In this document: one piece after another, positions 47,178 through 64,000 of the stretch
Numbering within the stretch: position 1 is the first letter of the stretch
Layout: each line of letters starts with the position of its first letter
From: Pseudobdellovibrionaceae bacterium
GTDB taxonomy: Bacteria; Bdellovibrionota; Bdellovibrionia; Bdellovibrionales; Bdellovibrionaceae
NCBI GenBank assembly: GCA_016785955.1
Contig: JAEUWH010000056.1
Span: forward strand, 1 to 64,000
DNA length: 64,000 nucleotides
Direction of reading: 5' to 3'
Notes under the pieces: generated by a model
What the model was told of the DNA's origin: nothing
What the model saw: only the letters and a program-made list of their open reading frames with translations
Databases searched by the model: none
Program-made: the position numbers and the translations under genes

Positions 47178-47744
47178 TTATTTATCAGGCTGAACCAAAA
47201 AGTTAATCCCTGTCCAACCTTCCTCAATAAGGACTCTCATAATTTTTTTTACGTTTTCGACGGACGTTTTTTCATCGGCTTGAAGATTAATCTGACCTTT
47301 AAAATTTTTCTCACCAGCGATTTCAACTTCAATGGTTCTAATTTTTTTCAAAACATTCCTTAATTGCGGAACTTTTTGATCATTAGGCTCTTCAACATAT
47401 ACGGGACGACCCTCGACATTTTCCGCATCGAACGAAACCTTATCACCAATAATAGAAATTATCGGAAAACTTTGCATAGGAAGCCCTTTTGCGGCTTTTG
47501 GCATCGTCACGTCTTTGGAGATAAAAAAAACCTCTCCCGAACTTGAAAAATTCATAATCAAATAAATAACCAAAATTGAAAACATGTCCACCATTGGAGC
47601 CAAGTTCAAATGAAAGGATTTCTTTTTATGACGTCGTTCATGAAGTAAATGACGAGTGTGGACTAAATCCCATTGAGGATGAATATGATAACCCGGTGGC
47701 CGAATAACTCGGCTTGCATATCCCTTAATTTTTTCACTATCCAT
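47178..47744 (-). CDS. TolR/ExbD-like protein, second of two (AglQ/AglS-like)
   Basis: 188 aa from the ATG at 47744, chosen because AAGGAAAG lies five bases upstream; starting at 47789 would overlap the neighbour. Cytoplasmic N-terminus (about 44 residues, rich in His and Arg), one transmembrane helix LAPMVDMFSILVIYLIMNF with the proton-path Asp53, and a periplasmic domain ending GWTGINFLVQPDK. ExbD/TolR proteins pair with a TolQ-type protein to convert proton flow into force. It is the last gene of the cluster; the N-terminal extension is longer than in typical TolR. Confidence 0.88.
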   Translation of the reverse strand: MDSEKIKGYASRVIRPPGYHIHPQWDLVHTRHLLHERRHKKKSFHLNLAPMVDMFSILVIYLIMNFSSSGEVFFISKDVTMPKAAKGLPMQSFPIISIIGDKVSFDAENVEGRPVYVEEPNDQKVPQLRNVLKKIRTIEVEIAGEKNFKGQINLQADEKTSVENVKKIMRVLIEEGWTGINFLVQPDK

Positions 47745-47758
47745 AGGACTTTCCTTGG

Positions 47759-48205
47759 CTATTGCGGATTGATCCCAACATCTGGCCAATCCGAAGCAAC
47801 GAGTAGGTCATACATCTTGATTAGATCTCCATATGTGACTAACGCGTCTGTATTCAAAACCACGTCTTTTTTATCTTGATAAGCCATGCGCCATCTTTCA
47901 AATTCCAATTTCAGTTTTTCTTTATCAAACTGACTTCCAATATTCTGAACGAATAACTCTCGATCATTTTCCTTTAGCAAAATTTTATCGCTATAGACCG
48001 TGACCGAAAGTGAAATTTTTTTTTCATCATTAGGTGGCGTTACCATATCCACAGGCGGTGTAGGGCCAGCCGTGGCCTTTTCAATAGAACTTGGCATCGA
48101 ATCAAGTTGAATCCAAGCGGCCGTCATCAGTAGAAAACAAATTAAAACCGAGAAAAGATCTATAAATGGCGTTAAATTAGGTTCGCTTCCCCCACCACCC
48201 GCCAT
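47759..48205 (-). CDS. TolR/ExbD-like protein, first of two (AglQ/AglS-like)
   Basis: 148 aa. Short N-terminus (MAGGGGSEPN), transmembrane helix TPFIDLFSVLICFLLMTAAW with the conserved Asp16 that carries protons in TolR, ExbD and AglQ/S, and a periplasmic domain of about 110 residues. Together with the TolQ-like protein three bases upstream and the second TolR-like protein downstream it gives the 1 + 2 stoichiometry of the AglR-AglQ-AglS gliding motor of Myxococcus xanthus. Homology to that motor is inferred from architecture and context. Confidence 0.9.
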   Translation of the reverse strand: MAGGGGSEPNLTPFIDLFSVLICFLLMTAAWIQLDSMPSSIEKATAGPTPPVDMVTPPNDEKKISLSVTVYSDKILLKENDRELFVQNIGSQFDKEKLKLEFERWRMAYQDKKDVVLNTDALVTYGDLIKMYDLLVASDWPDVGINPQ

Positions 48206-48208
48206 GAA

Positions 48209-48856
48209 CTAACCTTTAAAAATTTTTGATTTGTTTGATAAAATAAAATTTAAAGTGGCTACGCTGGCTTCATGAACATCATCAATGACTTTATTTGACC
48301 AGCTTCCCAGCCAACCCCAAGCTGCAAACAGTACAATCGAAATTAATAAACCAAACCCAGTGGCATTCAGCGCTTCCGCGATAGAACTTGCCAATACTTT
48401 TGCCTTATCGGCCGGAGGTAAATTAGCAACCGCACCAAAAGCCGCAATCATTCCTGAGACTGTTCCCAGCAATCCCAAAAGAACCGCAACGTTTGCCAGA
48501 GCTGACAAAGTATCAATTCGTCTACCTAACCTTGGAATTTCCCGCAAAGCCACTGCATCCATCGCTGTTTGTACCTCTTCCGGAGTTTGCCCATTAGCAA
48601 CAGAGATCAATCCCGCCCTAACAATATTGGGCAATGGTCCTTTAGATTGAGAAACCACCGCAATAGCCTTTTGTAGTTGACCATGCATGCAGTAACTCTG
48701 AATAAAACCCAAAAGCTCATCTTTATCAACAGCAGAAGCCGCCTTCAAGGTTAACGCTCTCTCGACAACAATAGCCACACCAGCAGCCGAACAGGCAGCA
48801 ATCGGAAACATGATATACCAGTGATCTAAGAAAATTCTTCCAAACTCACGCATCAT
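48209..48856 (-). CDS. TolQ/ExbB/MotA-like proton channel protein (AglR-like)
   Basis: 215 aa. Three transmembrane helices: one near residues 12-30 (WYIMFPIAACSAAGVAIVVE), one at about 118-140 (NVAVLLGLLGTVSGMIAAFG), and one at about 165-190 (ATGFGLLISIVLFAAWGWLG), with the GTVSGM and ATGxGL motifs of the TolQ/MotA family. With TolR-like subunits it forms an inner-membrane proton-driven motor. It is preceded by GAGGG before the ATG and by an 81-base gap after the FHA gene, and directly followed by the two TolR-like genes. Confidence 0.93.
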   Translation of the reverse strand: MMREFGRIFLDHWYIMFPIAACSAAGVAIVVERALTLKAASAVDKDELLGFIQSYCMHGQLQKAIAVVSQSKGPLPNIVRAGLISVANGQTPEEVQTAMDAVALREIPRLGRRIDTLSALANVAVLLGLLGTVSGMIAAFGAVANLPPADKAKVLASSIAEALNATGFGLLISIVLFAAWGWLGSWSNKVIDDVHEASVATLNFILSNKSKIFKG

Positions 48857-48937: not shown

Positions 48938-50776
48938 TCACAGCTTTCCAAATGGAAAGCCTATATTTGCGAGGGTTGATTGACCATTTTTAGCGGCAGG
49001 AAATTTCATTTTGTCGAAAATCGCCAAAACACATTTATTCAAAGAATCTGCATTGGACATTTCAGAACGTTTAACTTTACTGGACGTGACGCTACCACTG
49101 GCGCTGATTTTCCATTCGTATTCCACACGCCCCGTTAAATTGCTATTTTCCATCAGGGCTCGTTCATAGCAGCGATGGATGTCATTTAAATATTTGTTCA
49201 CAACAAGCATGACTTGATCTTGAGAAATACCTTGAGGAATTGTTGGTTGCTCAAGCTTTGGTGTTCCCAAAACACCACTCACGACTTTACGCTTTCCCGT
49301 TTTTCCACTACCAGAAGTTTGATATCCTACATTTCCTACTTGCTGTCCGACACTGGGAGAATTACCCTCGTTAACCTGCATTTTCCCAACTTGGCTTTTT
49401 AGAACGCCGGCAACTCCGGCAATACTGACTCCCTTTGCGGACACTCCGGGCTTACTATTTTTATCCAACTTGATCGGAGCATTCTTGGCACCTATTGGTG
49501 CGGCCGTCTCTGTCTCTGAAAACATATCACTGAAACTGTCCGCCATTTGCTGTGCCGACGTTTTCACCGGCTCGACCTTGGTTGGCATTTTCTCGGCCTT
49601 TGCCGTTCGTTCAGGTTTTGGTTGATCCTTTGGTGCAGGTTTTGGCTTAGCCACGGGTTTCAAATCAGGCTTTGGCGGCGGAGGCTCTTCTTTGTCCGGC
49701 GTCGGTGGTTTCGTTTCTGCCACGGGTAATGGCTCTGGTGGTTTTACATCTTCTACTTTTGGCAAAACTGGTGGTGGCGCTAATATCATTTTTGGTGGCT
49801 CTAAAATAAGTTTTGCAAAGCGAGGCGGAATATTTTCAACTTCCGGCGCGATGATTTTTTCAGCTGAAAAAACGGATACCAATGAAAATAGTAAATGAAC
49901 CCCGAGAGAGATCAGAATAGCTTTCTTAAAAACCTCTTTGTTTTCAATCCACGTTTTGGGAATAAACGGCCGCGGGACTTCCACATAACGTAAATGCAAT
50001 GACGTCTCGTTACCAAGGTCTATCGTGCAAACATCGTCTAATGACAACCCAAATCGGATGGACTTTTTAGAGGACTTAACAAAATTATTAACAATCGCCT
50101 GTTCTGAATCATAGCTTATACCGCCACGCTCTAGGCGCCATTTCAATCCGAAAGGAATGGACAGCTCTCCGCGGTTATTGACGTATTTACCCAGTTTGAT
50201 CTTATTCCTCAAAGAAGGGATCGAAATAGGATCAAAAGGACTAGCTCCCGCAACCACAAAATCAAATGACTGAAATTGCCTCACATCAAATATATCTTTT
50301 CCCCAAGTGACAACCGCCTGCAAGGTAATGTCCGTAGGATCCAAATCCGCAAGACTATCTTCAACTTCAAACTTCAGTCTTTTGGCAATACCAATTAGTC
50401 TTTTTGATATATTTGTTAACTCTGACGTATCGGTATTTATACTCGGCGAACTGGTTCTATTTTTTTCGACTAGTTCCCCGGCAACTTCCTCGAGTTCAAA
50501 AACATAGGTTCCTGCTGAAAAAACACCTTTTTTTGAAAAGGTCACACTGGGAACTTGAGCGTTATCAACAAAAATTCCATTTGTTGAATTCAAATCTACG
50601 ACCACAATTTTATCCTGCAAAAATCCGATACTGCCGTGAGTTCGCGACAAATAAGATGTATCAGGAAAAGCAATGTGATTCTGTTTACCGCGACCAAAAA
50701 CAATAGGAAATTTTGATATTTTACGGGAAAAAACAACTTTTCTATCTTCTTTGATGGTGATTTTTAAGGTCGGCAT
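48938..50776 (-). CDS. FHA - transmembrane - Pro-rich - AgmX/PglI C-terminal protein (GltG-like)
   Basis: 612 aa. Residues 1-95 are a cytoplasmic FHA domain (FGRGKQNHIAFPDTSYLSRT with the phospho-Thr-binding SRTHG and then DLNSTNGIFVD). A central beta-rich region follows, a transmembrane helix at about 291-310 (ILISLGVHLLFSLVSVFS), a long Pro/Lys-rich periplasmic linker (about 330-430) and a C-terminal TonB-like domain of the AgmX/PglI type (NKYLNDIHRCYERALMENSN, then GRVEYEWKIS and FPFGKL). This layout matches GltG of the Myxococcus gliding machinery, which links a cytoplasmic signal to the periplasm and the motor. It is four bases downstream of the TPR gene. Confidence 0.88.
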   Translation of the reverse strand: MPTLKITIKEDRKVVFSRKISKFPIVFGRGKQNHIAFPDTSYLSRTHGSIGFLQDKIVVVDLNSTNGIFVDNAQVPSVTFSKKGVFSAGTYVFELEEVAGELVEKNRTSSPSINTDTSELTNISKRLIGIAKRLKFEVEDSLADLDPTDITLQAVVTWGKDIFDVRQFQSFDFVVAGASPFDPISIPSLRNKIKLGKYVNNRGELSIPFGLKWRLERGGISYDSEQAIVNNFVKSSKKSIRFGLSLDDVCTIDLGNETSLHLRYVEVPRPFIPKTWIENKEVFKKAILISLGVHLLFSLVSVFSAEKIIAPEVENIPPRFAKLILEPPKMILAPPPVLPKVEDVKPPEPLPVAETKPPTPDKEEPPPPKPDLKPVAKPKPAPKDQPKPERTAKAEKMPTKVEPVKTSAQQMADSFSDMFSETETAAPIGAKNAPIKLDKNSKPGVSAKGVSIAGVAGVLKSQVGKMQVNEGNSPSVGQQVGNVGYQTSGSGKTGKRKVVSGVLGTPKLEQPTIPQGISQDQVMLVVNKYLNDIHRCYERALMENSNLTGRVEYEWKISASGSVTSSKVKRSEMSNADSLNKCVLAIFDKMKFPAAKNGQSTLANIGFPFGKL

Positions 50777-50780
50777 CTAT

Positions 50781-53700
50781 CTAGTTCTCCAACATCCATG
50801 GATGCATGAATCCGTCTGGTCTACCAACACTTTTAGACTTCGCGGCGACGATCGCCAATTTCTTGGTATAGTTGAATTTCTTATATAAAGCTTTAAGTCC
50901 CCATATAGCTGTCTTATTTGCCGAATCCGCCGCATAAGCATCTTGAAAAAAATTATAAGCTTCATCCAAATTATTCATAAACAGAGACACCACCCCCATC
51001 TCGGCTTTCAGCGTCTGATTAGTGGGCTCAAGCTCCTGAAGCCTAGCCAATGTGGCAAATGCCGAAGAGTAGTCACCTTGTTGTATATAGATTTTAACTA
51101 ACGGATAAATAACTTTTACATTTCTTGGTTCCCTATATATTTGCCTTCGAATTTGAGTGTAGGCTTCTGACGCCAGAGTTCGGGACGAGGATTTAAAATT
51201 CCTTTTAATATCTTTATCTTCCGTAATTAAGCTCGCGCCTTGACTGCGACACCCCTGAACAAAGGAGGTGAAAATATTGTTTTCTTCGGCCGTAACCAAG
51301 CACTGAGAAAAAATACTGTTCGTGTTATCACGATATTTTTTAATTTGTGGGTCTAACACCTTACGAATTTGCTCCGATGTCATCCCCGAAGGAGTTTTAA
51401 CATTCGACAGATAATGCACCATTTGTTGATTCAATTTGCCTTCCAAATACAAGGCCGCCAGCGCCCATCGGCCAATTCCTAACTTGATAACTTCTTGAAT
51501 TTGTTTATCGACCTCTTGAAAAACCTGAATTTTTTGTTTCAAAACTTGGGGCGTAAAGTCGCTGGCAGAGCCTACGGATTCAAAAGAAATCGAATCTTCA
51601 TAGGATATGATATAGCCAGCGTGAGCAATTTCACTTTTAGCTTCAAAATCATTTGACGAAAAATTTTGTAGACGTCTAAGCAGATTGAGTCCCTCTTGCT
51701 TTTTACCCTGCCGATACATGGACAACCCAGAATAATATATACCCTTGGAACCAGATATACGGGAGGCCACTTTCTGAAGTTCCAACCAATTTGCATCTAA
51801 AAACAACATCTGCGCTTGTTTTTCGACATTCCCGGTTCGAGCAAACAAATTGGCGGCCTCTTCCAAATCGCCCCTTTGCTCGGCGATAAGTGCCGCTTGT
51901 TGTAAATATACGCTGGACTTCTCGTCGTCTGGAAATTTCTGACTAAATGCCGTCAAGAACCGCTGAGCCCTTTTTAAATCCATTGATACCAATGCCATTT
52001 GAGTCATCGTCAGAAGAATCTCTTTGGCCTTAGCGCTCTTAGGAAAACTAGCTATAAAATCTTCCCCAATCTCGAATGCCTTCTCATCATTCTGCGCTTT
52101 TAAAGCCGTAAAAGCTTCGAATAGAGCATTTTCACCCAGTGTTGAGTTCTTATTTGACCTAGCAAATTTTACTATATTTTCGGCATATTTTTTTGAGCCA
52201 AAATCTCCGGCTAAACTCTTCACATTTTTAAGTTGAGCCTGTTGAAGAATATCTTGAATTTTAGTTTTCGTTGATTGAGTGAACTGGATCCGGCTCAGCA
52301 AAGCATTTCCTTCGTTAACTAAGCCTTTTAAATCATCTCTTATGTAGTAGGTATCCAATAATAGTAATACAGCTTCTGTCGATTGCGGGCCATTCGGAGT
52401 ATTACTGACAAACTGCCTTAACGATTTAACAGCCTGCTCGAAATTTTTTTCGTCATAAAATGACTTTGCAATATTAAAAGAAATTTTTTCATTTTCTTTG
52501 CTGTTTTTGAATCTTTTTAAAAATGCCTTGGCAATATCTCGATACTTAATCCTAGATTGAAACCTTTCTAGCACGGTCAAGGCATCCGAACTCACAAAAG
52601 ATTTCTCAAGTGCCTCTAAAGCGGATAAATAGAATTCTTTGGCCTTATTTTGATTTTTTATAGTCCTCGCAATGTCCGAATATAAAATACTGGCCTCTAT
52701 ATATTTTTCCGCTTTAAAATAGGATTCTGCCAAATTTATTTTCATATTAGCAGAATGTTTTTCTCTCGGGAAAAACTGAAGATAATTTTCATAAATATCA
52801 GCTGCCATTTTAAAATCTTCAATCCTATTTGCAGCATTACTATTTGTGTGAAATCGAGTCACTATATCGCGATAAGCCGGTTCATATTTTTTATATTCAA
52901 TCCGATTTAACTTCATAAGACTAAATGTTTCAAAAATGTCTTCTGCCAAATTTTCAGGAAAATAGTCTTTCTTGGATGTCTTCATCGCTAAATAGTAACT
53001 TTCAAAAGATTCCCGCCGCCCCTCTGGATCTGTAGAAAGTCGCATAAGTTCATAGTTCACCTTTGCCGCTTCATAATGACGATTTTTAACGCTCAATCGT
53101 CGTCCCAGACGTTGCAAAACACGCCTGTAAACGGCTTTATCAAAAGATAACTCGCGATAATAGTCCAGGGGATTCAAGAATCTTGGGTACACAGACAAAT
53201 CTTGATCAGATAAATCCGAAAGAGGCATTACACTGGCGATGAGAACTTCCTCTCTGACATCTTTTATACTTGATGCGACAACGGCCTCTGCTGGTCTTTC
53301 AACAGCCAAGGATTTTTCATAAGCCAGCATTGCATTCAAATATTTATCCATGAAAAATTCACATTGCCCAATTTTATAATAGGCCTGTGCGATGAAAGGA
53401 CTGTTCACCTTCGCTACAATTTTATCAAACTGTTGCTTAGCGAATTCATAATCTTTCTTATCATAAAAAATCATTCCCAAAGCAAATTGACTTTCCGACC
53501 AAAAGGAACTGTCGGGAAACTTATCGGTTATTTCTTTGTAGTATTTCATTGCACGGTTGCTGTCGTTAATTTCCCGATATTCATGAGCAATGGAAAAAAG
53601 AACTTTATCCCGGCTATTGTACTTTGCATATCTATCCAGCAGGGATTGGAGCGTATCAATCGCTTCTTGTTTAATTCTCTTCTCTGCGGTGAAATCAATT

Positions 53701-53960
53701 TCATCCACAGGAGTTCCCGCTTTAAGTTCCAATTTCAAAGCGTACATGTACCTTGCTTTTTCAATATACAATTCTGCCAATGACAAATAGATATCCGGAA
53801 GAAACTCGACCTCTTTCGGAGATCTAACTTTTTCCTTTGTGATATTTATAGACTGATCTAGACGTTCGATATTTTGCCTTAATTTTTGCACAACTTCCGA
53901 GGTCGCGGCCCCGGCGCAGGAAAAGACACCAGATAAGATAAAGACAAAAATAGCTTTCAT
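50781..53960 (-). CDS. Large periplasmic TPR-repeat protein
   Basis: 1059 aa. N-terminal signal (MKAIFVFILSGVFSCAGA); whether Cys is lipidated is unclear since Phe sits at -2. The rest is almost entirely TPR-type helical repeats, for example REINDSNRAMKYYKEITDK, FALGMIFYDKKDYEFAKQQF and QAYYKIGQCEFFMDKYLNAM, and again near the C-terminus (LEPTNQTLKAEMGVVSLFMN). TPR proteins of this size (AgmU/GltD, AgmK) are scaffolds of the gliding complex. It overlaps the second TPR gene by one base and is followed four bases later by the FHA gene. Assignment to a particular Glt subunit is inference. Confidence 0.85.
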   Translation of the reverse strand: MKAIFVFILSGVFSCAGAATSEVVQKLRQNIERLDQSINITKEKVRSPKEVEFLPDIYLSLAELYIEKARYMYALKLELKAGTPVDEIDFTAEKRIKQEAIDTLQSLLDRYAKYNSRDKVLFSIAHEYREINDSNRAMKYYKEITDKFPDSSFWSESQFALGMIFYDKKDYEFAKQQFDKIVAKVNSPFIAQAYYKIGQCEFFMDKYLNAMLAYEKSLAVERPAEAVVASSIKDVREEVLIASVMPLSDLSDQDLSVYPRFLNPLDYYRELSFDKAVYRRVLQRLGRRLSVKNRHYEAAKVNYELMRLSTDPEGRRESFESYYLAMKTSKKDYFPENLAEDIFETFSLMKLNRIEYKKYEPAYRDIVTRFHTNSNAANRIEDFKMAADIYENYLQFFPREKHSANMKINLAESYFKAEKYIEASILYSDIARTIKNQNKAKEFYLSALEALEKSFVSSDALTVLERFQSRIKYRDIAKAFLKRFKNSKENEKISFNIAKSFYDEKNFEQAVKSLRQFVSNTPNGPQSTEAVLLLLDTYYIRDDLKGLVNEGNALLSRIQFTQSTKTKIQDILQQAQLKNVKSLAGDFGSKKYAENIVKFARSNKNSTLGENALFEAFTALKAQNDEKAFEIGEDFIASFPKSAKAKEILLTMTQMALVSMDLKRAQRFLTAFSQKFPDDEKSSVYLQQAALIAEQRGDLEEAANLFARTGNVEKQAQMLFLDANWLELQKVASRISGSKGIYYSGLSMYRQGKKQEGLNLLRRLQNFSSNDFEAKSEIAHAGYIISYEDSISFESVGSASDFTPQVLKQKIQVFQEVDKQIQEVIKLGIGRWALAALYLEGKLNQQMVHYLSNVKTPSGMTSEQIRKVLDPQIKKYRDNTNSIFSQCLVTAEENNIFTSFVQGCRSQGASLITEDKDIKRNFKSSSRTLASEAYTQIRRQIYREPRNVKVIYPLVKIYIQQGDYSSAFATLARLQELEPTNQTLKAEMGVVSLFMNNLDEAYNFFQDAYAADSANKTAIWGLKALYKKFNYTKKLAIVAAKSKSVGRPDGFMHPWMLEN

Positions 53961-55441
53961 TACTTACCACCTTCTTTACCTGTTGAAACTCCAGCGCATC
54001 GATCTACAAGTAAAACTTGATAGTTTTTGTATTCTCCCCACCAGTATTCCTTTCCTACTGGCCAGTATAGAACGTTATAGTTTTGGTTTCTTTCTGAATT
54101 TTGTGATTTATACTCTCTACTTTCAAATAAGTTCTTTATTCTAAATTCATCGAGCCCAGAAACATACTCCAACAATCTTATTTCTTCCGCCTTGTTCACG
54201 AAATTAATAGCAGTCGGTTTAAGTAACGGCTTAATTTCTCTTTCAATGTTTTCTCTATAATTTTTTTCGAATACTTCTAAATCAGTTATCATTTTTTTTC
54301 GAGTCGAAGAGTCCAACGAAGAATGCCTGGTCTTTAAGTCTTTCATTTCGACTCTCATTCTATTTATTAGATCTGCGGACTCTTTGATTCTGATGTTTTG
54401 AAATATAATTCTTTTAACAATTTGGCTTTTACTAAAGTCTTGACCGGACTTAAAATAGGATAATAGAAATCTGTACTTTGATTCAAACTCACTCGCGATT
54501 CTTTTCACGGTGGGGTAATGACATAACTCTCGGTATATCATCATTTCCAAAATTACCTGCTCGGGGTTAAAGGCCGTTTTGAAATTTTCTGATTTCAGGC
54601 TCTCTAGCAAACCCAGCGCATGGGCATATTTTTTTTGATAGAAACTGACTAAGGCTCGTTCATACAAAACCCGTCCTGTGTCCCGTCCTTGAGAGTCATA
54701 TTTCAAATAGTCTTGTTCTGCTTTATCAAAAGATTTCGTTTCAAAATAGATTCGGGCTCTTTGTAAAATCGATTTTCTTTTGATAACGGCATGTATACCA
54801 TCGCTTTCGATCAATCTCGACAAAACCTCTTCTGCGCTTTTAAAGTCACTTTTTTTAACAAACTCAATGGCGCGAAAAAACTCTAAGTTTTGCCCCCAGT
54901 AACTATTGGGCTCAACGTATTTAATACTGTCAAAGGCCCATTTGATTTCGCCTTTGCTGAAATTATCCAGCGCCACAAAATATTGGATCATTGAAGACGC
55001 GGGCGCCGGAACCTCTTTAAATGCTCCTCTGTTGAGTAAATATCTGATGTCTTTTTCATAGGTGGGAACTTCGGGAAGAATATTGCTCAACTGAAGCAAA
55101 GCCTTTTGTGACATGAATGTTCCGGGATACCCTTTGATGATTTCCTTAAAGTACTCAACCGCCAAGGACTTTAAATCAATTTCAATAAGCGCTTCGGCCA
55201 TAAATAGTTTGGCTTCGACTCTGCTTAAGTCGTCTTCCTTCTTATCATTGATGATTTTATAAAGTAAATTAATGGCATCATATATGTTTTTTTGACTGAT
55301 TAAATCGTTAACCGTCTCAAATACTTTACGATTTTGTGGAATATATTTCCACCCGCCGACAACGGTCGTCTCTTGCGCATTCGCAACCGAAACGAAAAAA
55401 AATAAAAAATGAAGTAAAATGCGGTTACAACGTTTTGCCAT
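53960..55441 (-). CDS. Periplasmic TPR-repeat protein
   Basis: 493 aa from the ATG at 55441, supported by AGGTG about nine bases upstream and a signal peptide MAKRCNRILLHFLFFFVSVA ending ANAQE. Helical repeats include KIINDKKEDDLSRVEAKLF, ALIEIDLKSLAVEYFKEII and FETKSFDKAEQDYLKYDSQ. Mostly helical to the end, with the C-terminal WPVGKEYWWGEYKNYQVLLV region being beta-like. A start at 55486 would add 15 residues and overlap the barrel gene by more. It overlaps both neighbours (barrel gene by 17 bases, large TPR gene by one). Confidence 0.82.
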   Translation of the reverse strand: MAKRCNRILLHFLFFFVSVANAQETTVVGGWKYIPQNRKVFETVNDLISQKNIYDAINLLYKIINDKKEDDLSRVEAKLFMAEALIEIDLKSLAVEYFKEIIKGYPGTFMSQKALLQLSNILPEVPTYEKDIRYLLNRGAFKEVPAPASSMIQYFVALDNFSKGEIKWAFDSIKYVEPNSYWGQNLEFFRAIEFVKKSDFKSAEEVLSRLIESDGIHAVIKRKSILQRARIYFETKSFDKAEQDYLKYDSQGRDTGRVLYERALVSFYQKKYAHALGLLESLKSENFKTAFNPEQVILEMMIYRELCHYPTVKRIASEFESKYRFLLSYFKSGQDFSKSQIVKRIIFQNIRIKESADLINRMRVEMKDLKTRHSSLDSSTRKKMITDLEVFEKNYRENIEREIKPLLKPTAINFVNKAEEIRLLEYVSGLDEFRIKNLFESREYKSQNSERNQNYNVLYWPVGKEYWWGEYKNYQVLLVDRCAGVSTGKEGGK

Positions 55442-56090
55442 CAACTTTTGCACCTGGATTATCAAAGGAGAACGTAAATCCCACATCCATTAAAAAATTT
55501 GAACTTTTATTGCTAGCCGTATGGAAGTATATCCTGGAATCAAACTTAACTGAAAAAGTTTGGCTTTTAAAAAAACGCAGTTGTGCGCCCGTACCAATAA
55601 TAGGGGCACTATCTCCCGAGTTAAAATTGATAACCCCAGCACCTAAAATAAAACCCAGTTCGGAATGAACAATATTTTTGTTAAAAAAAAGATTTTTACC
55701 ATAAATGGGAGTATAAACCACAGAGGTGGTTCCATAATTTCTTACAAAGTCTAAAATACCGGTCGGCTTCACCGAAAAATTGTTAATAAGATCTGATTTC
55801 AAACCAGTATCCTGTTTAAAAGCAGCCTGAAAATTTACAATCTCCCACGACCACGCGCTATCGATAACTTTATTGTAGTTCAGCCCAACAGAAAGAGCTT
55901 TATAAAAAGCATCAATTGGTAACAATCCGATATGCACACCAAAATCGCTCACTGGTTGAAACTGCCTGTTTTCGACAACCACCACCTCGGGCAGATCATA
56001 CGCATCTGTTTTATTAAGGACTTGTTGGGCATACACAAAACGCATGGAAATAGAAAAAATGATTATGAAATAGAAATTCAATTTATACAC
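55425..56090 (-). CDS. Small outer-membrane beta-barrel protein of the motor cluster
   Basis: 221 aa from a GTG at 56090; signal peptide MYKLNFYFIIIFSISMRFVY ending VYAQQ. The mature part alternates strands (FGVHIGLLPIDAFYKALSVG, SWEIVNFQAAFKQ, TSVVYTPIYGKNLFFNK, LMDVGFTFSF) in the manner of the OMP_myx_plus-type barrels found in myxobacterial and Bdellovibrio motility clusters, comparable to GltA/GltB. The last residues are not the classic Phe but GKTL after a strand FTFSFDNPG. It opens the downstream seven-gene block; 142 bases separate it from the RCC1 gene. Confidence 0.75.
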   Translation of the reverse strand: MYKLNFYFIIIFSISMRFVYAQQVLNKTDAYDLPEVVVVENRQFQPVSDFGVHIGLLPIDAFYKALSVGLNYNKVIDSAWSWEIVNFQAAFKQDTGLKSDLINNFSVKPTGILDFVRNYGTTSVVYTPIYGKNLFFNKNIVHSELGFILGAGVINFNSGDSAPIIGTGAQLRFFKSQTFSVKFDSRIYFHTASNKSSNFLMDVGFTFSFDNPGAKVDGKTL

Positions 56091-56232: not shown

Positions 56233-58263
56233 TTATTGATTAAAAACAAGTTCTGGAGTTAATTTCTCACCATAACTAGCACTGCCAGTTTGTCCTTGAG
56301 AATTCATTCCCCAACACCAAATTTTACTATTGCCATCGATACTACACGTGTGGCCGCCAGACACTGAAACCGAAACAGGATTACTTACGGCAAACACTGT
56401 GGACACTTGTGGGTTATTGACCTTGGTTTCATAGTCATAGCCCCAGCACTTCAGTTGTGTTTGCGTGGGCGAGTTCTGCTCTATGGCGCATCCTCGAGAA
56501 CTACTAACACTTAAAGCCCTGACTACAGTTAACCCATAGGTAGCATATGGAAAGTCGCTGTTAGTCTGCCCTTCTTCATCGTATCGCGTGGGGCAGGCAT
56601 TATCCTTATTTGTAACCAGCTTCAAAGACTTGCCCCAGCAGGCCACCATATTATTAGCCGCAGCCGATATTTGTGTACCATAGGTGGCTATGACGACTTT
56701 CCCATTTGTTGAAATCGTTTGAAATTTATTTCTGTTAAACAAATTTCTAATATACGAATCCGTCACTGCGTCCTCTGGAAATTTAAAAGTTGTTGATCCT
56801 AAAACGGTATTCACTGGCAGCATCAAAGGTTGCTCCATCGTCGTTCCGTTCATGCTTCCCCAGCAATAAAGACGACCATACTTATCCGCTATACAGTTAA
56901 AATCACTCCCTGATGTCATCTGCAAAAGCGGAAACTCTGGGTTCGCACCATTTGAAGCGGCATTAAAAATAATTTTTTGTGGTTGAGCCGTATAAGACAA
57001 ACTGGATGAACTGATCCCCAGCTGGGAAAAACGATTTCGTCCCCAACAAAAAATACTCGCATTAGCCGCCTCTGCGCAACTATGTTCCTTACCCAAAGAA
57101 ATAGTAAGTGGCTTAGCCTCTATGGGTACCTTTGCCGGAATATTCAAATCTTGAAATAACATATCACCGGCTTGACCATAATTGCTGGCTCCCCAACAAT
57201 AAAGCTCATCAGATTTCAAAATAGCACAACCATGAAAAGCCCCGACCGCGATATCTTTTGCAGGTAATGGCAATTTCACCAACACGGGCCCCAAAGAACT
57301 TTTAAAAGAACCGTCCCCCAATTGACCATACTGATTATTTCCCCAACACAAAACTTTGCCCGTCTTTTCCAAAGCGCAACTATGAAGCTCTCCCGTCACG
57401 ACTTTGGAATAAAGAAAATTCAAGGCGCTGTTTTGGCATGTTCCACACGTGGATGAGCTGGCCACCGGGAGCAACTGAAAATCTTGAGGAGAGAGTTTTA
57501 CATTGGGTTGCTCATCCACTTTAATTTTTATACTTTTGGCAAAGTAGTAGTCAGAAAGTTGCGAATTCTGGGTTTTCATTCGAAGCAACAATAGAATCAC
57601 ATTTTCATCTTTGGAATGAGATAAACTAAATGGACCATGTGAATTCAAAGTATCGTTAAATTCCGCGACGACACCCGTAGCGATGTTAGTAACATTAAAA
57701 CGGTAGGCAGATTGTCCTTCACCGCAATTCAGTCGCCCAGGTACATCGTCGCCAAGAAGATCAACGTCTACCTCAGTAAAATCGCCATTTTTATCATGAA
57801 ACTCAGGATCTAGACCACGCTGAATCTCTTGCTTGTTTACGATGCCATCGTGGTCGGCATCGTTATTTAAGTCATTTATCTGAGGATTCAAACCTTTCAA
57901 AACTTCGACAAAATCGGGCAACCCATCAAGGTCTCTATCGGCATCACTAACAACCACTCCGGGCGCATCGTCACCATCAGAACCGTCTAGAACACCGTTG
58001 ACGTTGCTATCACTTTTTAATGCACCTTGCGAATTTCTGATGGTCAAGTTTAATGCGTAAAAGTCTCCCAGTTGATATTTGGAAAATTCTTTGCTGGAAT
58101 AAGGGAAACAAAAAGTCCCCTCAAAAGAATTGACTTGTTTCTTTTGAACCAATTCTTCAGTTAACTGAACGTTACTACATTGCTGAAATGTAAGCGTTAT
58201 ACCCAGTAAAAGACTGGATAAAAAGATCAGGTAGTAGTGAAATTTCATCACTTGGAAACGCAT
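56233..58263 (-). CDS. RCC1 beta-propeller lipoprotein with Asp-rich Ca-type stalk
   Basis: 676 aa; ATG at 58263 or 58248 (MKFHYYLIF), both giving lipobox TFQQC (Cys29 in the longer form). Residues 60-78 carry KYQLGDFYALN; 108-165 have TSP3-like calcium repeats (DADRDLDGLPDFVEVLKGLN, DADHDGIVNKQEIQRGLDP); 185-255 hold a beta-rich module (LSHSKDENVILLL). Residues about 285-676 contain seven CWG-type RCC1 propeller repeats (LCWGNNQYGQLGDGS, YCWGASNYGQAGD and so on) that should close one propeller. The stalk and module are shared with the two vWA lipoproteins upstream, so it is probably a surface-facing partner. Six bases separate it from the Cys-rich gene. Confidence 0.85.
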   Translation of the reverse strand: MRFQVMKFHYYLIFLSSLLLGITLTFQQCSNVQLTEELVQKKQVNSFEGTFCFPYSSKEFSKYQLGDFYALNLTIRNSQGALKSDSNVNGVLDGSDGDDAPGVVVSDADRDLDGLPDFVEVLKGLNPQINDLNNDADHDGIVNKQEIQRGLDPEFHDKNGDFTEVDVDLLGDDVPGRLNCGEGQSAYRFNVTNIATGVVAEFNDTLNSHGPFSLSHSKDENVILLLLRMKTQNSQLSDYYFAKSIKIKVDEQPNVKLSPQDFQLLPVASSSTCGTCQNSALNFLYSKVVTGELHSCALEKTGKVLCWGNNQYGQLGDGSFKSSLGPVLVKLPLPAKDIAVGAFHGCAILKSDELYCWGASNYGQAGDMLFQDLNIPAKVPIEAKPLTISLGKEHSCAEAANASIFCWGRNRFSQLGISSSSLSYTAQPQKIIFNAASNGANPEFPLLQMTSGSDFNCIADKYGRLYCWGSMNGTTMEQPLMLPVNTVLGSTTFKFPEDAVTDSYIRNLFNRNKFQTISTNGKVVIATYGTQISAAANNMVACWGKSLKLVTNKDNACPTRYDEEGQTNSDFPYATYGLTVVRALSVSSSRGCAIEQNSPTQTQLKCWGYDYETKVNNPQVSTVFAVSNPVSVSVSGGHTCSIDGNSKIWCWGMNSQGQTGSASYGEKLTPELVFNQ

Positions 58264-58269
58264 AGTCTG

Positions 58270-59088
58270 TTATCTATCCTCGCATGGAGTATCTTTTGTA
58301 TTTGGGTAATTACTGTTTTTGCACGCGATTTTTCGGGCGCAGTTACTTCGGTTATTCTCGGGCTCTCCCTCGATATCCGCGCCTCGTTCATCTTCTTTCC
58401 AAAGACAAAGTTTGGGCTTCTTCAAATTTTCTTCTTCTGGGTATTTTGGCATTTTTGGTTTTTCACAACTGCCCTTTACTATTTTAACGTCCATGGTTTG
58501 CCCCTTCTTGGGGCCGCTGGGAACAACGGCCGTCGTTGGACAGCGTTGCATATTTGAACACTCTGTTGGGCTCACCAATGTTAATCGTTTTTCTGGGTCG
58601 GGATTAGAATCCAAATAAAAGGGACATGTTTTCCCCGATAAAAATGGCTTTTCATCATCACAAGGTTTACGATTACATATCAAGCATCCTGCATTAAAGC
58701 CAACATCAGCGGTCACGACCTTTTCAAAACAGGGCAGGCACTCTTCTTTACAAATAGGCTCGCCCCAATCAAAGCATTCTGAGTGAGTCGTACACGTTTC
58801 ACCCGCCTGGTCGCCGTTTCCCGAATTTTTTTCACACACTTTCACTTGTTGAAAAGACTTACAATAAAAGGCAACTGGTCCCTCGGCCCGAAAAGCCGTA
58901 CTGGGATATGCCCCGTAATCACATTTCACCTGCTCTAGTTTTTTTGCCACGTTTCGAAAGCATGAGTGGTCAAAAGCAGCAACACAGCCCAACTTCAAGC
59001 CCTCAATTTCCAGACAGTTTTTATCGGCCTGACTTATGGAAATCCACAAGCCGACTAAGAAAAACAAATTTATCCCCAAAAATTTCAC
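58270..59088 (-). CDS. Cys-rich exported protein
   Basis: 272 aa with a signal peptide (MKFLGINLFFLVGLWISISQA) and more than 20 Cys in the mature part, in short spacings such as CTTHSECFDWGEPICKEEC, CLICNRKPC and RKIACKN. Such spacing indicates a disulfide-rich extracellular domain resembling EGF- or TIL-type modules, but no family is recognised. It sits between the second vWA lipoprotein gene and the RCC1 gene (19 and 6 bases), so it belongs to the same surface operon. The mature chain is acidic to mixed in charge, and it ends CEDR. Confidence 0.75.
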   Translation of the reverse strand: MKFLGINLFFLVGLWISISQADKNCLEIEGLKLGCVAAFDHSCFRNVAKKLEQVKCDYGAYPSTAFRAEGPVAFYCKSFQQVKVCEKNSGNGDQAGETCTTHSECFDWGEPICKEECLPCFEKVVTADVGFNAGCLICNRKPCDDEKPFLSGKTCPFYLDSNPDPEKRLTLVSPTECSNMQRCPTTAVVPSGPKKGQTMDVKIVKGSCEKPKMPKYPEEENLKKPKLCLWKEDERGADIEGEPENNRSNCARKIACKNSNYPNTKDTPCEDR

Positions 59089-59107
59089 TTAACCGCCCCC
59101 AATTAAA

Positions 59108-60781
59108 CTATTGTTCCCCAATGTATTTATAGTCATCAAGCTCATAATCCGATTGATTTTTCTTAACTCTAATTTTTTGCACATACATTTTTGTCGGTAA
59201 ATCTATACCGCCCATAGATTTCCAATACGAGAAAACCAAAAGAACGTTTTCATTTTCGGCGTGAGAAAGATCAAGATTTTTACTTTCGTCCTCGTAGGCG
59301 AGGGTGTCAACAAATGGAATATTCCCTATTTGATAGTCATATCTTTTGGCCGATCCAGAACAACTCAGAGGGCTTTCAAAAAGTCTAAAATCAAGGATAT
59401 TTCTATCCTCGACTGGATACAATTTGAAATTGCTTAAAATGTCTAAGCCCTTGCTTAATTTTATAAAGTTATACAACCCATCGGCAAACGGAGACTCAAA
59501 TGTGTCCACCCGCAACGGATTCATATTTCGAACTAACTCGAGCCAATCAGGAACGGCATCTTTATCCGAGTCTACCGAAGAAATTTTCTTTCCAAATAAT
59601 TTAATACTTATTTGTTCATCACACGGAGATAGTCCAAAAAAATTAAGGGGCTCACGTTCACAGATCAAATCATTTTTTTGCTGATCACACTCCGCTAATG
59701 ACAAACCTAATCTTAAACAAAGAGCATCATGAAACACACCCGAGTGTGACTTTGTCGGATTGTATCCAAGTCTCATTTCATCCGCATCAGAAAAACCATC
59801 GCCATCAGTGTCTACAAGAAAGACATTCTTCTTCATGACGGCCGATATATTAATCGCATAAAATTGACTTAGCTCGTAATTCACAGGCACCGAAGGTTGG
59901 ATGTATTGGCATAAACTATCTTTCTTAGAGGTTATATCCGTCAAAAGAATAGTCTTTTGATTTGGATCAACTTCGTGGGCGATTTCGTCCATCAAGGATT
60001 GGGCACTGGCCAATTGTTGACCCTGATTTTTAGCGCCAGGACTGGTGTAAAACACCGGGAAGAAACTCATCCCCCCCGCTTTCGTTGCTGTTTGACTTTT
60101 TAATTCGTTTAGAATTTGCTTATAGTTTTTATTGGCCGCCAAATCGGTAGTCATTCCATCCGTAATAAAAAATACTTTATAGATTGGCTTTTCTTGCAGC
60201 AGCTGAGCTAGCTCGCTTGTGATCTTGTTTTTTGCGCAATTAAGGCCGACAGAGTAATAGGTTTGACCTTGCAAATAATATGGATTTTGTCGCTCGCGAC
60301 TGGATATGGAAAGATCATGCGTTTGCCTTCCCTTAAGAGCATCAATAGATTTGATGGCATTCTCTTTATTTTCAAACTCACTGAAACAACTTTGGTTATT
60401 CTCAATAAGCGTCGTTTCTGAAAACCCTATGACGGCATACTTAGAATTTGCCGAACTTCCACAATTAGCAATAAAATTTCGGACTTGAGTAAAACGATGG
60501 CCTTGAAGATCGGATGGGCCATCTGACGTATCCAATGAATACGTAGTTTTACCATCATTCGTTACAGTTTTCAAAGTTCCCACATTGGACATCGACATAT
60601 CCACGATAAAAACAAAACGCATTGGAGCCGTGAAACTTGTTCCCTCTGGAGCACAGCTAAAACTCTCGGGCTTTGCTGAACTCATGGCTGTTTCCAGCGG
60701 CAAAGGCTCAAGGTTCACCCTAGAACAATTTTGAAAAAAGAATAGTATAACTAAGAAAAGTACACTTATTTTAAACTTCAC
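59108..60781 (-). CDS. vWA-domain lipoprotein, second of two
   Basis: 557 aa. Lipobox FFQNC (Cys19) followed by SRVNLEPL, almost the same as in its neighbours. Residues about 54-285 form a von Willebrand A fold: RFVFIVDMSMSNVG with MIDAS Asp61-Ser63-Ser65, a candidate Thr near 154 (GRQTHDLS) and VFFITDGMTTD for the fifth ligand. Then NYELSQFYAIN (301-311), calcium-type repeats VDTDGDGFSDADEMRLGYNP (323-342) and SVDSDKDAVPDWLELVRNMN, and a C-terminal beta module with LSHAENENVLLVFS. vWA proteins bind metal-dependent ligands; the likely role is surface adhesion. It overlaps the first vWA gene by four bases. Confidence 0.85.
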   Translation of the reverse strand: MKFKISVLFLVILFFFQNCSRVNLEPLPLETAMSSAKPESFSCAPEGTSFTAPMRFVFIVDMSMSNVGTLKTVTNDGKTTYSLDTSDGPSDLQGHRFTQVRNFIANCGSSANSKYAVIGFSETTLIENNQSCFSEFENKENAIKSIDALKGRQTHDLSISSRERQNPYYLQGQTYYSVGLNCAKNKITSELAQLLQEKPIYKVFFITDGMTTDLAANKNYKQILNELKSQTATKAGGMSFFPVFYTSPGAKNQGQQLASAQSLMDEIAHEVDPNQKTILLTDITSKKDSLCQYIQPSVPVNYELSQFYAINISAVMKKNVFLVDTDGDGFSDADEMRLGYNPTKSHSGVFHDALCLRLGLSLAECDQQKNDLICEREPLNFFGLSPCDEQISIKLFGKKISSVDSDKDAVPDWLELVRNMNPLRVDTFESPFADGLYNFIKLSKGLDILSNFKLYPVEDRNILDFRLFESPLSCSGSAKRYDYQIGNIPFVDTLAYEDESKNLDLSHAENENVLLVFSYWKSMGGIDLPTKMYVQKIRVKKNQSDYELDDYKYIGEQ

Positions 60782-63108
60782 TCGCGTGTCCCCTCCTTAT
60801 CAACTTTTTTTAAAGGGGCAAACTCGGACAAATCAATCGTTAGGATTTTATTCTGATTATTAATAAAATAGGACTTTGTATACCAATACGAGCTCATGCT
60901 GTTTTTTACATTATCAATTCTAAGCCGAACGACGATTTCATTATCTTTTTTATTCTCGTTCACAATAAACGGCAATTGAGAGATACCTATTTTATAAACT
61001 GGTAAATCATATTCTATGCCCTGGGAACTTTTAGACTTAACTTGTGATTTGTAATCGACATTAAGTTTTATTTGTTTGGATTCATCAATAGAACGTAAGT
61101 TTGTTCGAAATGAAAATCCTCTTAAAAAATGTTCAAAATTAGTCATTCCATCATTACTGAAATATAGTTTTTGATCGTTATCCATAGGGTTAAAACCCAT
61201 AAGGACCTCATCCCAGTCCAAGAGTGAATCTTTATCGCTATCCTCCGAGAAGTCATCTGTACCTAACGTCTTTTCTTCGCATTCATTCAACCCGTCACTA
61301 TCCCGATCAACACTGGGATCACAGCCCAAGTTCAAGCATTGTCCAAAGCGTTTTTTTATTGAGTCCAAGCATATCCCATCGGTCCTAATCAGCGCCGGAT
61401 TAGAACCGGCTTCTAAGCTGTCAATAACGCCATCGCCATCCACATCCAAGTGGAAATGACCTTTGTCATCGGAATATACATTTCGATTAAATGCATATAC
61501 AACCCCAAGACGATATTTTTGCACTTCTGAAAATTCAGGAAATATCTCTGGGGTACTATTAAGGGTTTTGAATTCGCTGAAGGCGTATTTTTTTCCAAAA
61601 TGAGCATACGCTTTAACAATCCAATTAAGATCTTGAGATAATTCTCCCGGAGACGTTTCATAGGCTAGAACGTTTGAATTGACTCGTAAAAAATTGAGAT
61701 GAAATTTACTTTCCGTAAACTTGTTTATAAAAATATTTTCCATTTCTTTCAGACTTTGAAGAATATAAACATGGTTATTAAAAATCCAATCTCCCCATAC
61801 CGATACAATATCGGTTTTAAAGGTATCCGCAGAATAGATACTCGAACATGAGGATTGGGGACAAGAGATTGTATTGTACTTATACTGTTTTAAAACTTCA
61901 AAGCATTGAGTACAGGTCATATTTTTACCAAGCCAACGACTATCAGGTAAAATCGAGACTTTTGATTCAGGTATGCTATAGCTGAGGCACTTATTATTAC
62001 TCGCTCGACTGGTGCAAATAGAGTTTTCGCCTTCGGGGATAACAACTCCTCCTTCGTCAACATATCGCTGAAGGTAATTTGAACATTTTTGCGAACACAG
62101 CGTAGCATCCACATTTTTCCATCCTGTAGAAACTGAGGTATCATCAGCGCACGATCTGAAGGCGGGTCCGTATTCCGTTACGTCACAAACTTCTTTCTTT
62201 TGCTGCCAAACATATTCGATCACTTTTTTCATATGAATCGGATGAGGTTTCGGGACTCCATCAGACAAAAGAACAATCTCGAAATAACTTTTGTTAGACA
62301 CATTTGCTTTTCTCAATTCGTCTAGCTCATTGTAAATGACCGAATTGACCTTCACAATCGCCGGTTGAACCATAGAGGTTCCCGTAGAGTGACCTTGAGC
62401 ATTTGCCATATTTGTTGATGTCAATACGGGCAGAACATTTACAACGTCGTTTGGAATATCCCGAGGATAGGGCTCGGATTGAAGATTGTTAAAGACTCCC
62501 CATAAAAGATAGATATAGTATTTCGCCGCTTTTAAAGATATAAAGCCTGGCTGAATTTTTTCAGCTATAGTCAGTTTTTGAATATACGAATTCATTCTAC
62601 TTAATGACGTTAATGTACCTCTAGAATTATAAGTATTTTCTAAGGTCCAATTTTTTTCCATTAATGCATTTGAAAAAGGTTGAACTAATACCTTCAAATC
62701 TTCGTATTTCAAAATACCAAGTTTAACCTTGTCCTCCAGGGCTTCAATCCACTTAATTGCTAATCGAAAGCGCTTACCTTCTGGATCAACACCTGTAGGA
62801 CTTATGCAGCTAAGAGGATTAACATCATCGATAAGCGTATCAATCGAATCTTGGCACGGCCCTGAATACATGGACTGTGACATATCTAAGATTAGAGTTA
62901 ATCGTAATCGATCCCTATTTTCTGGAAAAATCTTTAAAGCACTTTCGGCCGACAGCGATGACTGAGAACGGGATGCCTCGTCCACTTTCTCCAATCTGAC
63001 TTGCCCGCAATTTTGCCACAGCAGCACCAGAACAAATGCCACCGCCGTTGGAAAAAACATTTTTTTCCAACGAGTATTGACTAAATATTTTTTCGTAATA
63101 TTCCCCAC
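60778..63108 (-). CDS. vWA-domain lipoprotein, first of two
   Basis: 776 aa from 63108; an in-frame ATG at 63060, with GGA six bases before it, would begin the lipoprotein signal more typically. Lipobox LLWQNC (Cys34) then GQVRLEKV. The vWA domain carries MIDAS Asp75-Ser77-Ser79 in LTLILDMSQSMYSGP and is interrupted by a long Cys-rich insert (about residues 290-400, e.g. CSQKCSNYLQ and CTQCFEVL). Calcium-type repeats follow (LDVDGDGVIDSLEAGSNP, DRDSDGLNECEEKTLGTDDF, DSDKDSLLDWDEVLMGFNP), preceded by KYRLGVVYAFN, with a C-terminal beta module. It is first in the surface operon, and by analogy with CglB an adhesin; that analogy is inference. Confidence 0.85.
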   Translation of the reverse strand: MGNITKKYLVNTRWKKMFFPTAVAFVLVLLWQNCGQVRLEKVDEASRSQSSLSAESALKIFPENRDRLRLTLILDMSQSMYSGPCQDSIDTLIDDVNPLSCISPTGVDPEGKRFRLAIKWIEALEDKVKLGILKYEDLKVLVQPFSNALMEKNWTLENTYNSRGTLTSLSRMNSYIQKLTIAEKIQPGFISLKAAKYYIYLLWGVFNNLQSEPYPRDIPNDVVNVLPVLTSTNMANAQGHSTGTSMVQPAIVKVNSVIYNELDELRKANVSNKSYFEIVLLSDGVPKPHPIHMKKVIEYVWQQKKEVCDVTEYGPAFRSCADDTSVSTGWKNVDATLCSQKCSNYLQRYVDEGGVVIPEGENSICTSRASNNKCLSYSIPESKVSILPDSRWLGKNMTCTQCFEVLKQYKYNTISCPQSSCSSIYSADTFKTDIVSVWGDWIFNNHVYILQSLKEMENIFINKFTESKFHLNFLRVNSNVLAYETSPGELSQDLNWIVKAYAHFGKKYAFSEFKTLNSTPEIFPEFSEVQKYRLGVVYAFNRNVYSDDKGHFHLDVDGDGVIDSLEAGSNPALIRTDGICLDSIKKRFGQCLNLGCDPSVDRDSDGLNECEEKTLGTDDFSEDSDKDSLLDWDEVLMGFNPMDNDQKLYFSNDGMTNFEHFLRGFSFRTNLRSIDESKQIKLNVDYKSQVKSKSSQGIEYDLPVYKIGISQLPFIVNENKKDNEIVVRLRIDNVKNSMSSYWYTKSYFINNQNKILTIDLSEFAPLKKVDKEGTRE

Positions 63109-63291: not shown

Positions 63292-64000
63292 ATGAAGAGA
63301 GAGACTAAATCAAGAATACAGCCTAGATTAAAATCCAGTACAGTCGGCGCCTCATTAGTTGAAGTTCTTATTAGTTTCGGTCTGCTTACAACCATAATGT
63401 TTGCCGTAGGTGTCATGCTTATCAACCAACAAAAAGAAGTTCAGTCATTAAGCGAGTCCTTAGCCCGTTTAGAGGTGGAAAAATTACTTATCGGAGTTTT
63501 AGCAGATGGAAAAGTATGCACGAAACTTCTTGCGAGTAAAACATTCTCTTCGAATACTTTAAATTGGCAGCCCAGTCTTGCTCTGACTGGATTGCCGGCC
63601 AATGAATTGTCAGGGGCGTCGAATATACTTTCCGTCAACAGCTTGGCGTCTTCGCTGTCTTCATCTTTGAAAATCGACACTATAGATTTTGTTGATATTC
63701 TTAACAATAATGCAACGCCTGCATCTAATAGTTGGCGCGCATCTTTGGTTGTCAGTTTTACGGGTAGCGTTCGAGCACTCAAACCAATTAAAATTCAAAC
63801 CATACTTATGACCGATTCAGATCCAGTAACAAAAACAGTTATTAATTGCTCGAGCGTAGCAAATTTACCTACCCCGACATGGGTCTTCTCATCGGGCATA
63901 CAATGGAACAGTAGTCCCAATGGAGGAGCTTTTATCTCGGGGACGGCTCCACATCCCCCGGGTATACAACCCTCGGGAGATGCTCAAGGTGACTTCTACT
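63292..64000 (+). CDS. Type IV prepilin-like protein (partial, runs off the window)
   Basis: At least 236 residues, no in-frame stop to the right edge. After a basic leader (MKRETKSRIQPRLKSST) the stretch VGASLVEVLISFGLLTTIMF and AVGVMLINQQKEV is a class III prepilin signal: cleavage after Gly, methylated first residue, Glu at position +5 and a hydrophobic helix. The helix is followed by a periplasmic beta-rich domain, with Cys in VCTKLL and INCSSV, and then NSSPNGGAFISG. Minor pilins of type II secretion or type IV pili have this layout. It is divergent from the vWA lipoprotein operon with 183 bases between. The total length is unknown. Confidence 0.75.
   Translation, partial: MKRETKSRIQPRLKSSTVGASLVEVLISFGLLTTIMFAVGVMLINQQKEVQSLSESLARLEVEKLLIGVLADGKVCTKLLASKTFSSNTLNWQPSLALTGLPANELSGASNILSVNSLASSLSSSLKIDTIDFVDILNNNATPASNSWRASLVVSFTGSVRALKPIKIQTILMTDSDPVTKTVINCSSVANLPTPTWVFSSGIQWNSSPNGGAFISGTAPHPPGIQPSGDAQGDFY

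Follow-up and report, generated by a model that had tools for sequence, protein, structure and literature searches.

Three lipoproteins sharing one scaffold are encoded beside an Agl/Glt-type gene cluster in a Pseudobdellovibrionaceae bacterium

Introduction

In Myxococcus xanthus, the Glt complex recruits the vWA surface protein CglB (PMC13104615), an outer-membrane lipoprotein that acts as an adhesin of the Glt/Agl machine (PMC13104615, PMC4488436), and a gliding requirement has been described for CglD, a predicted vWA lipoprotein (PMC4488436). The Mts locus of the same organism contains MtsD (NF047639), which NCBIfam labels a cell-cell cohesion protein, and neighboring TSP3 lipoproteins. 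PMC11980579 cites a protein of an Mts-type locus, spelled MstC, in connection with cohesion, S-motility and development; we infer that it corresponds to a gene in locus L062. In Bdellovibrio, the vWA gene for Bd3099 lies in a gliding cluster and is up on surfaces (PMC9140294), and Bd0875, a MIDAS protein with a lipobox, is needed for normal prey invasion (PMC11003981). In both Bd0875 and Bd1483, the N- and C-terminal parts of the protein form a small beta domain, into which the MIDAS domain is inserted (PMC11003981).

The DNA analyzed here, referred to as the window, is a stretch of 64,000 nucleotides from a Pseudobdellovibrionaceae bacterium (assembly GCA_016785955.1, contig JAEUWH010000056.1, positions 1 to 64,000). 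It encodes three neighboring lipoproteins, A, B and C, that were compared with these systems.

Results

A scaffold common to three lipoproteins

All three genes are on the minus strand. Lipoprotein A (60778..63108; 776 aa, GTG start) consists of a lipobox, WQNC (Cys34), a vWA head with the MIDAS sequence DMSQS and a Cys-rich insert, and a stalk (60781..61539) containing the strand YRLGVVYAFN, TSP3-like repeats and a divergent C-terminal module. Lipoprotein B (59108..60781; 557 aa, GTG start), whose gene overlaps that of A by 4 bp, contains the lipobox FQNC (Cys19), a vWA head and the shared stalk (59111..59878), with the strand YELSQFYAIN, TSP3 repeats (Pfam TSP3_bac, 2.9e-6) and a C-terminal beta module carrying LSHAENENVLL. 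Lipoprotein C (56233..58263; 676 aa) contains the lipobox FQQC (Cys29), a stalk without a vWA domain (57469..58122; strand YQLGDFYALN, Asp-rich repeats and a C-terminal beta module carrying LSHSKDENVILL) and a C-terminal RCC1 propeller. TSP3-type spacer repeats, which are probably calcium-binding, and a homologous C-terminal beta module are common to the three proteins, and their motifs were all located where a preliminary description of this DNA had placed them.

Pairwise BLASTP gave E values of 5e-11 (A-B), 3e-10 (A-C) and 8e-9 (B-C), placing the shared part above chance. For the C-terminal module alone, the BLASTP values were 1e-5 (A-C), 1e-4 (B-C) and 0.03 (A-B, weak). The modules were also compared profile to profile, using 12-13 relatives per family and starting past the last TSP3-like repeat, which gave 99.2% for B-C (E 1e-19), 85.6% for A-C (6e-6) and 81.6% for A-B (1e-5). 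Similarity is therefore present outside the TSP3-like repeats, and A is the divergent member, in keeping with the earlier remark that the module was clear in two proteins and weaker in the third. Within this genome, the stalk profile matched A, B and C only.

The common lipobox style, previously taken as a tie among the three genes, was discarded as a sign of kinship, as FQNC recurs throughout the genome. The FQNC/QNC pattern was found at 51 sites, compared with 19 for the reversed control pattern, and at least eight other, unrelated proteins carry FQNC N-terminally (e.g., L188, L191, L194, L196 and L199). The usual lipobox consensus is L-A/S-G/A-C, and the deviation of the A, B and C lipoboxes from it was counted against reading these proteins as outer-membrane adhesins. 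The Gln-Asn before Cys in FQNC could represent a lipoprotein sorting signal specific to this lineage.

Between B and C, separated from them by 19 bp and 6 bp, respectively, lies a gene absent from the preliminary description (58270..59088, minus strand), which encodes a Cys-rich secreted protein of 272 aa with 22 Cys and a signal peptide without a lipobox. No Pfam match near the cut-off and no PHROG was obtained for this protein, which was assigned to no known family; relatives were clear only in loci L046 and L054 and weak in L160, each beside a trio of A, B and C genes. Promoter and terminator scans gave signal near the shuffled level. A prepilin-like gene (GASLVEVLISFGLL) at 63292-63999 on the plus strand is divergent from the adhesin genes and runs past the window end.

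vWA heads apparently inserted in the scaffold

The vWA heads are encoded at 61549..62907 in A (minus strand; approximately residues 68-520, including the Cys-rich insert, with the MIDAS residues conserved in 13 relatives) and at 59885..60634 in B (minus strand; residues 50-299, MIDAS DMSMS / T174 / D208). Because the Pfam VWA model matched neither A nor B, the assignment was checked by fold and by profiles. An AF2 model of B was built from 10 sequences (mean pLDDT 65), in which the stalk part was of low confidence and its fold was left unassigned; the head, residues 49-299, gave a VIA Z of 18.1 to vWA/I domains, with complement C2a reaching Z ~18 and the integrin I and vWF A1 domains ~17. The B head profile matched the pilus vWA adhesin 3tw0 at 1.3e-5, and the heads of A and B matched each other at 98.6% in profile-profile comparison. 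DxSxS, Thr and Asp of the MIDAS are all invariant in the B family; in the A family, DxSxS and the loop-3 Asp are invariant and the loop-2 Thr nearly so. A and B thus have the vWA fold with a full MIDAS triad, the fold being based on the model for B and on the profile-profile match to B for A. Surface exposure and ligand binding are predicted for both heads.

In the B family, the vWA domain is preceded by an invariant Cys (C43) and followed by the YxLxxxYAxN strand, whereas the corresponding Cys (C52) and strand of the C family are ~10 residues apart. From this spacing, the vWA domains of A and B appear to be inserted within an N-terminal scaffold part that is kept whole in C, with the flanking strands presumably packing together. 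Such an insertion would explain the module order, which in A and B is lipobox, beta element with the vWA inside, TSP3 repeats and beta module, and in C is the same without the vWA, followed by the C-terminal RCC1 propeller. In combining a lipobox with an inserted MIDAS domain, A and B are arranged much as Bd0875 and Bd1483 have been described. The Bdellovibrio proteins differ from the window set in that Bd0875 has ~378 aa and in that a TSP3 stalk, a trio and RCC1 repeats are absent from the descriptions of Bd0875, Bd1483 and Bd3099.

An RCC1 propeller on a normally headless subunit

The RCC1 propeller of C (56236..57408, minus strand; residues 286-676) was matched by Pfam WD40_RLD (1.9e-42) and RCC1_2 (1.1e-34) and by UVR8 (1.9e-32), with the RCC1_2 and RCC1 models over their cut-offs. 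These Pfam and UVR8 matches put beyond doubt the RCC1 head, which had been described as following the stalk in C, and together with the profiles and the fold of B they confirm that the heads differ, being vWA in A and B (with the Cys-rich insert in A) and RCC1 in C. An AF2 model of C (pLDDT 43) was left out of the analysis.

Region maps of 44 stretches showed A proteins of ~590-780 aa, B proteins of ~520-700 aa and C proteins of ~305-340 aa. The trio genes usually run A-B-C, with other arrangements in distant families, and in most relatives they overlap by short stretches. The complete C proteins on these maps are headless except for those of the window and of L046 (680 aa), which are sister loci in both the A and the B trees (support 100/100 and 100/99). 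A search of the phylum with the RCC1-type C, which scored few candidates per genome, found it in only 2/369 genomes, those of the window and L046. As judged from these sequences, C is normally a headless protein of ~320 aa and the RCC1 propeller a lineage-specific addition.

Many other proteins of this genome also carry RCC1 repeats (43 RCC1_2 repeat matches in all), several of them behind a lipobox, and these proteins are a plausible source of the C head. Lipoproteins such as L188 and L191 resemble C in carrying RCC1 repeats behind a lipobox but lie outside the stalk-profile matches, and the RCC1 part of C is closest to that of L046. Among the other RCC1 proteins, one (L185:2565-4910; G000:C91) has an N-terminus resembling a Ser/Thr protein kinase (KLGKYTLLEQMAVGGMAEIH) and would be a kinase-RCC1 propeller fusion; L186, L187 and L189 (G000:C78, C111 and C46) are very long, 1173-1649 aa, with lipobox-like signal peptides.

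An Agl/Glt-type cluster downstream

Downstream of A-B-C and on the same strand is a complete Agl/Glt-type cluster that the preliminary description missed. Its first gene, 142 bp from C, encodes an outer-membrane beta-barrel of the OMP_myx_plus family (55425..56090; NCBIfam TIGR04565, 7.7e-19, over cut-off). It is followed by a GltC-like TPR protein (53960..55486), which matched NCBIfam gliding_GltC at 1.1e-11 but fell short of the equivalog cut-off, and by a GltD-like TPR protein of 1059 aa (50781..53960), assigned by position and architecture, which is homologous to the TPR protein of the M. xanthus Mts locus and serves here as the marker of the cluster subtype. The GltG-like protein (48938..50776) contains an FHA domain, a transmembrane segment, a Pro-rich region and an AgmX/PglI C-terminal domain; the C-terminal domain scored over its cut-off (myxo_SS_tail, 3.5e-20) and the equivalog model below (gliding_GltG, 6.4e-24). 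An AglR-like MotA/TolQ/ExbB proton channel (48209..48856; Pfam 2.8e-24) and two AglQ/S-like ExbD subunits, each with a transmembrane Asp (47759..48205, LTPFIDLF, TolR/ExbD models; 47178..47789, LAPMVDMF, Pfam 5.5e-12), complete the set. With a predicted AglR-type channel, two ExbD-type subunits, GltG-, GltC- and GltD-like proteins and an OMP barrel, the cluster is classed as Agl/Glt-type, and this neighborhood shifts the likely function of the lipoproteins from passive to motor-coupled adhesin.

Glt homologues have been reused for non-motility tasks. The cluster could accordingly resemble the M. xanthus Nfs spore-coat system, with the lipoproteins holding or remodeling a surface glycan, to which RCC1 and beta modules could bind. 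We regard such a surface-polymer machine as improbable, given that no polysaccharide genes were recognized among the scanned genes next to the cluster and that the MIDAS residues of A and B are kept, as in adhesins.

Distribution of the trio and its link to the GltD subtype

The stalk was found in 13/66 genomes of the family. From this patchy distribution, the trio is one variant and not a general Bdellovibrio gliding adhesin. A, B and C are each recognizable across several families of the order, which argues against the local duplication implied by the earlier term "duplicated modular adhesin set"; what holds of that term is that the lipoproteins are modular and combine a homologous scaffold with different adhesive-type heads. 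As far as sequence comparison reaches, A-B-C is an ancient three-subunit module conserved across the order.

Close GltD homologues (E<1e-100) were present in 11 of the 66 family genomes, this genome having one, and all 11 also encode the stalk, sometimes on another contig (Fisher's exact p 7e-11). As the genomes are related, co-occurrence was also tested within genera, where the probabilities of five genera multiply to 4e-7. As counterexamples, genomes G043 and G058 encode a stalk protein but lack a close GltD homologue. In eleven loci, no more than 20 kb separates trio genes from Agl/Glt genes (the window, L049, L050, L051, L053, L060, L153, L154, L157, L159 and L166), and in several genomes the trio is away from glt genes on the sequenced contig. 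The search for co-occurrence in other Bdellovibrionota that had been suggested thus finds the trio across the order and tracking the GltD subtype in the family. In a scan of genome contigs, most matches were proteins of unrelated phyla that share only the TSP3 repeats, and the loci used from it were L061, L082, L134 and the Myxococcus-type loci. In the same genus, the flanking gene is not syntenic, which left no empty site for comparison.

The placement of trio and Glt genes on different contigs in several relatives might be read to mean that the lipoproteins are independent duplicated adhesins, neighbors of the Glt cluster by chance and with no functional link to it. Against this stand their joint presence or absence inside five genera and the eleven loci, spread over several families, in which they lie close together, and we consider chance neighborhood very unlikely, even less probable than the surface-polymer machine. 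For the reading in which trio and Glt machine belong together, the loci on different contigs indicate that the link is not mere proximity. Two genomes with incomplete assemblies contain several trios, or parts of trios, with a single close GltD: two trios in G052 (C91, C138) and three A genes in G055 (C157, C142, C144).

Comparison with Mts, CglB and CglD of M. xanthus

In the M. xanthus genome, clear matches to the B profile were limited to the Mts-locus lipoproteins. A frame of 1182 aa, perhaps CglD, was matched weakly; 5/12 relatives of B match the CglD model weakly, in the TSP3-type part, and CglD is approximately twice as long as B. CglB, which differs from the window set in being one protein and not a trio, was not recovered by the B profile, and this profile search found no further vWA gene.

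Like the window, the Mts locus encodes three lipoproteins that combine TSP3 repeats with a C-terminal module, two of them with vWA heads containing a MIDAS, and adjoins GltC, GltD, GltG and OMP paralogues. In profile comparisons with the Mts lipoproteins, the heads matched at 98.1% (B) and 97.0% (A) and the C-terminal module of B at 87.6%; the C-terminal module of A gave no match and that of C only 32%. Sequence identity is ~20%, the third Mts lipoprotein is without DxSxS near its N-terminus and without RCC1, and the Mts locus includes a TSP3 protein with a MYXO-CTERM-like tail, a type of protein not seen, by eye, among the ORFs listed for ~41-64 kb of the window. Since B scored 21.7 bits on the MtsD equivalog model, far below the cut-off of 800 bits, it is Mts-like and not MtsD. 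By sequence, the window set resembles a Glt-coupled vWA adhesin and is related to Mts without being an MtsD equivalog.

This kinship raises the alternative that the lipoproteins bind sister cells or matrix in a largely static way, with the Glt-like proteins used for assembly or display and not for propulsion. It draws on the Mts lipoproteins, set beside Glt paralogues, as the nearest M. xanthus relatives, on the cohesion label of MtsD and on the finding that the M. xanthus Mts stretch examined contains no AglR or ExbD genes. Here, however, the cluster includes AglR and two ExbD subunits that retain the transmembrane Asp, and the distribution of the trio follows that of the GltD subtype. Static cohesion thus seems unlikely, though it ranks ahead of the other alternatives.

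Discussion

The explanation we favor, and think fairly probable, assigns A, B and C to a proton-driven Agl/Glt-type machine that spans the envelope, as its outer-membrane adhesins; in this reading, their surface location, complex formation, coupling to the motor and adhesion are all predicted. The lipid-anchored scaffold would comprise the N-terminal beta element, the TSP3-type spacer repeats and the C-terminal beta module, with a vWA/MIDAS head inserted in the N-terminal element of A and B and the scaffold of C left whole. Together, the AglR/ExbD motor and a transducer made up of the GltG/GltD/GltC-like proteins would shift or strain the assembly of OMP and lipoproteins at the surface, and the MIDAS heads would grip a surface, a sister cell or prey, producing traction or a stronger contact. 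In this genome and one relative, the RCC1 propeller would equip the otherwise headless subunit with a third binding face, one of non-MIDAS type.

The output of this machine may be gliding, cohesion or prey contact, and motor-coupled adhesion is ranked first with static cohesion next. Gliding may be the wrong output, as the Mts locus is tied to cohesion and S-motility and not to gliding. A broader model, offered tentatively and held less firmly than motor-coupled adhesion itself, is a platform with swappable heads, in which three lipoprotein subunits built on one scaffold form a complex driven by one proton motor, the headless subunit can gain a new head such as RCC1, and several adhesin trios may serve one Agl/Glt machine.

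A 2026 review describes the gliding machinery of Bdellovibrio as unidentified and its motor, adhesins and force transmission as a major open challenge (PMC13104615). In the locus described here, a predicted motor, transducer and barrel adjoin three candidate adhesins, and a link emerges between the clusters of Bdellovibrionota and the Mts cohesion locus in Myxococcus. How such a machine may gain new binding specificity is suggested by the third subunit, in its headless form and in the form crowned with RCC1.
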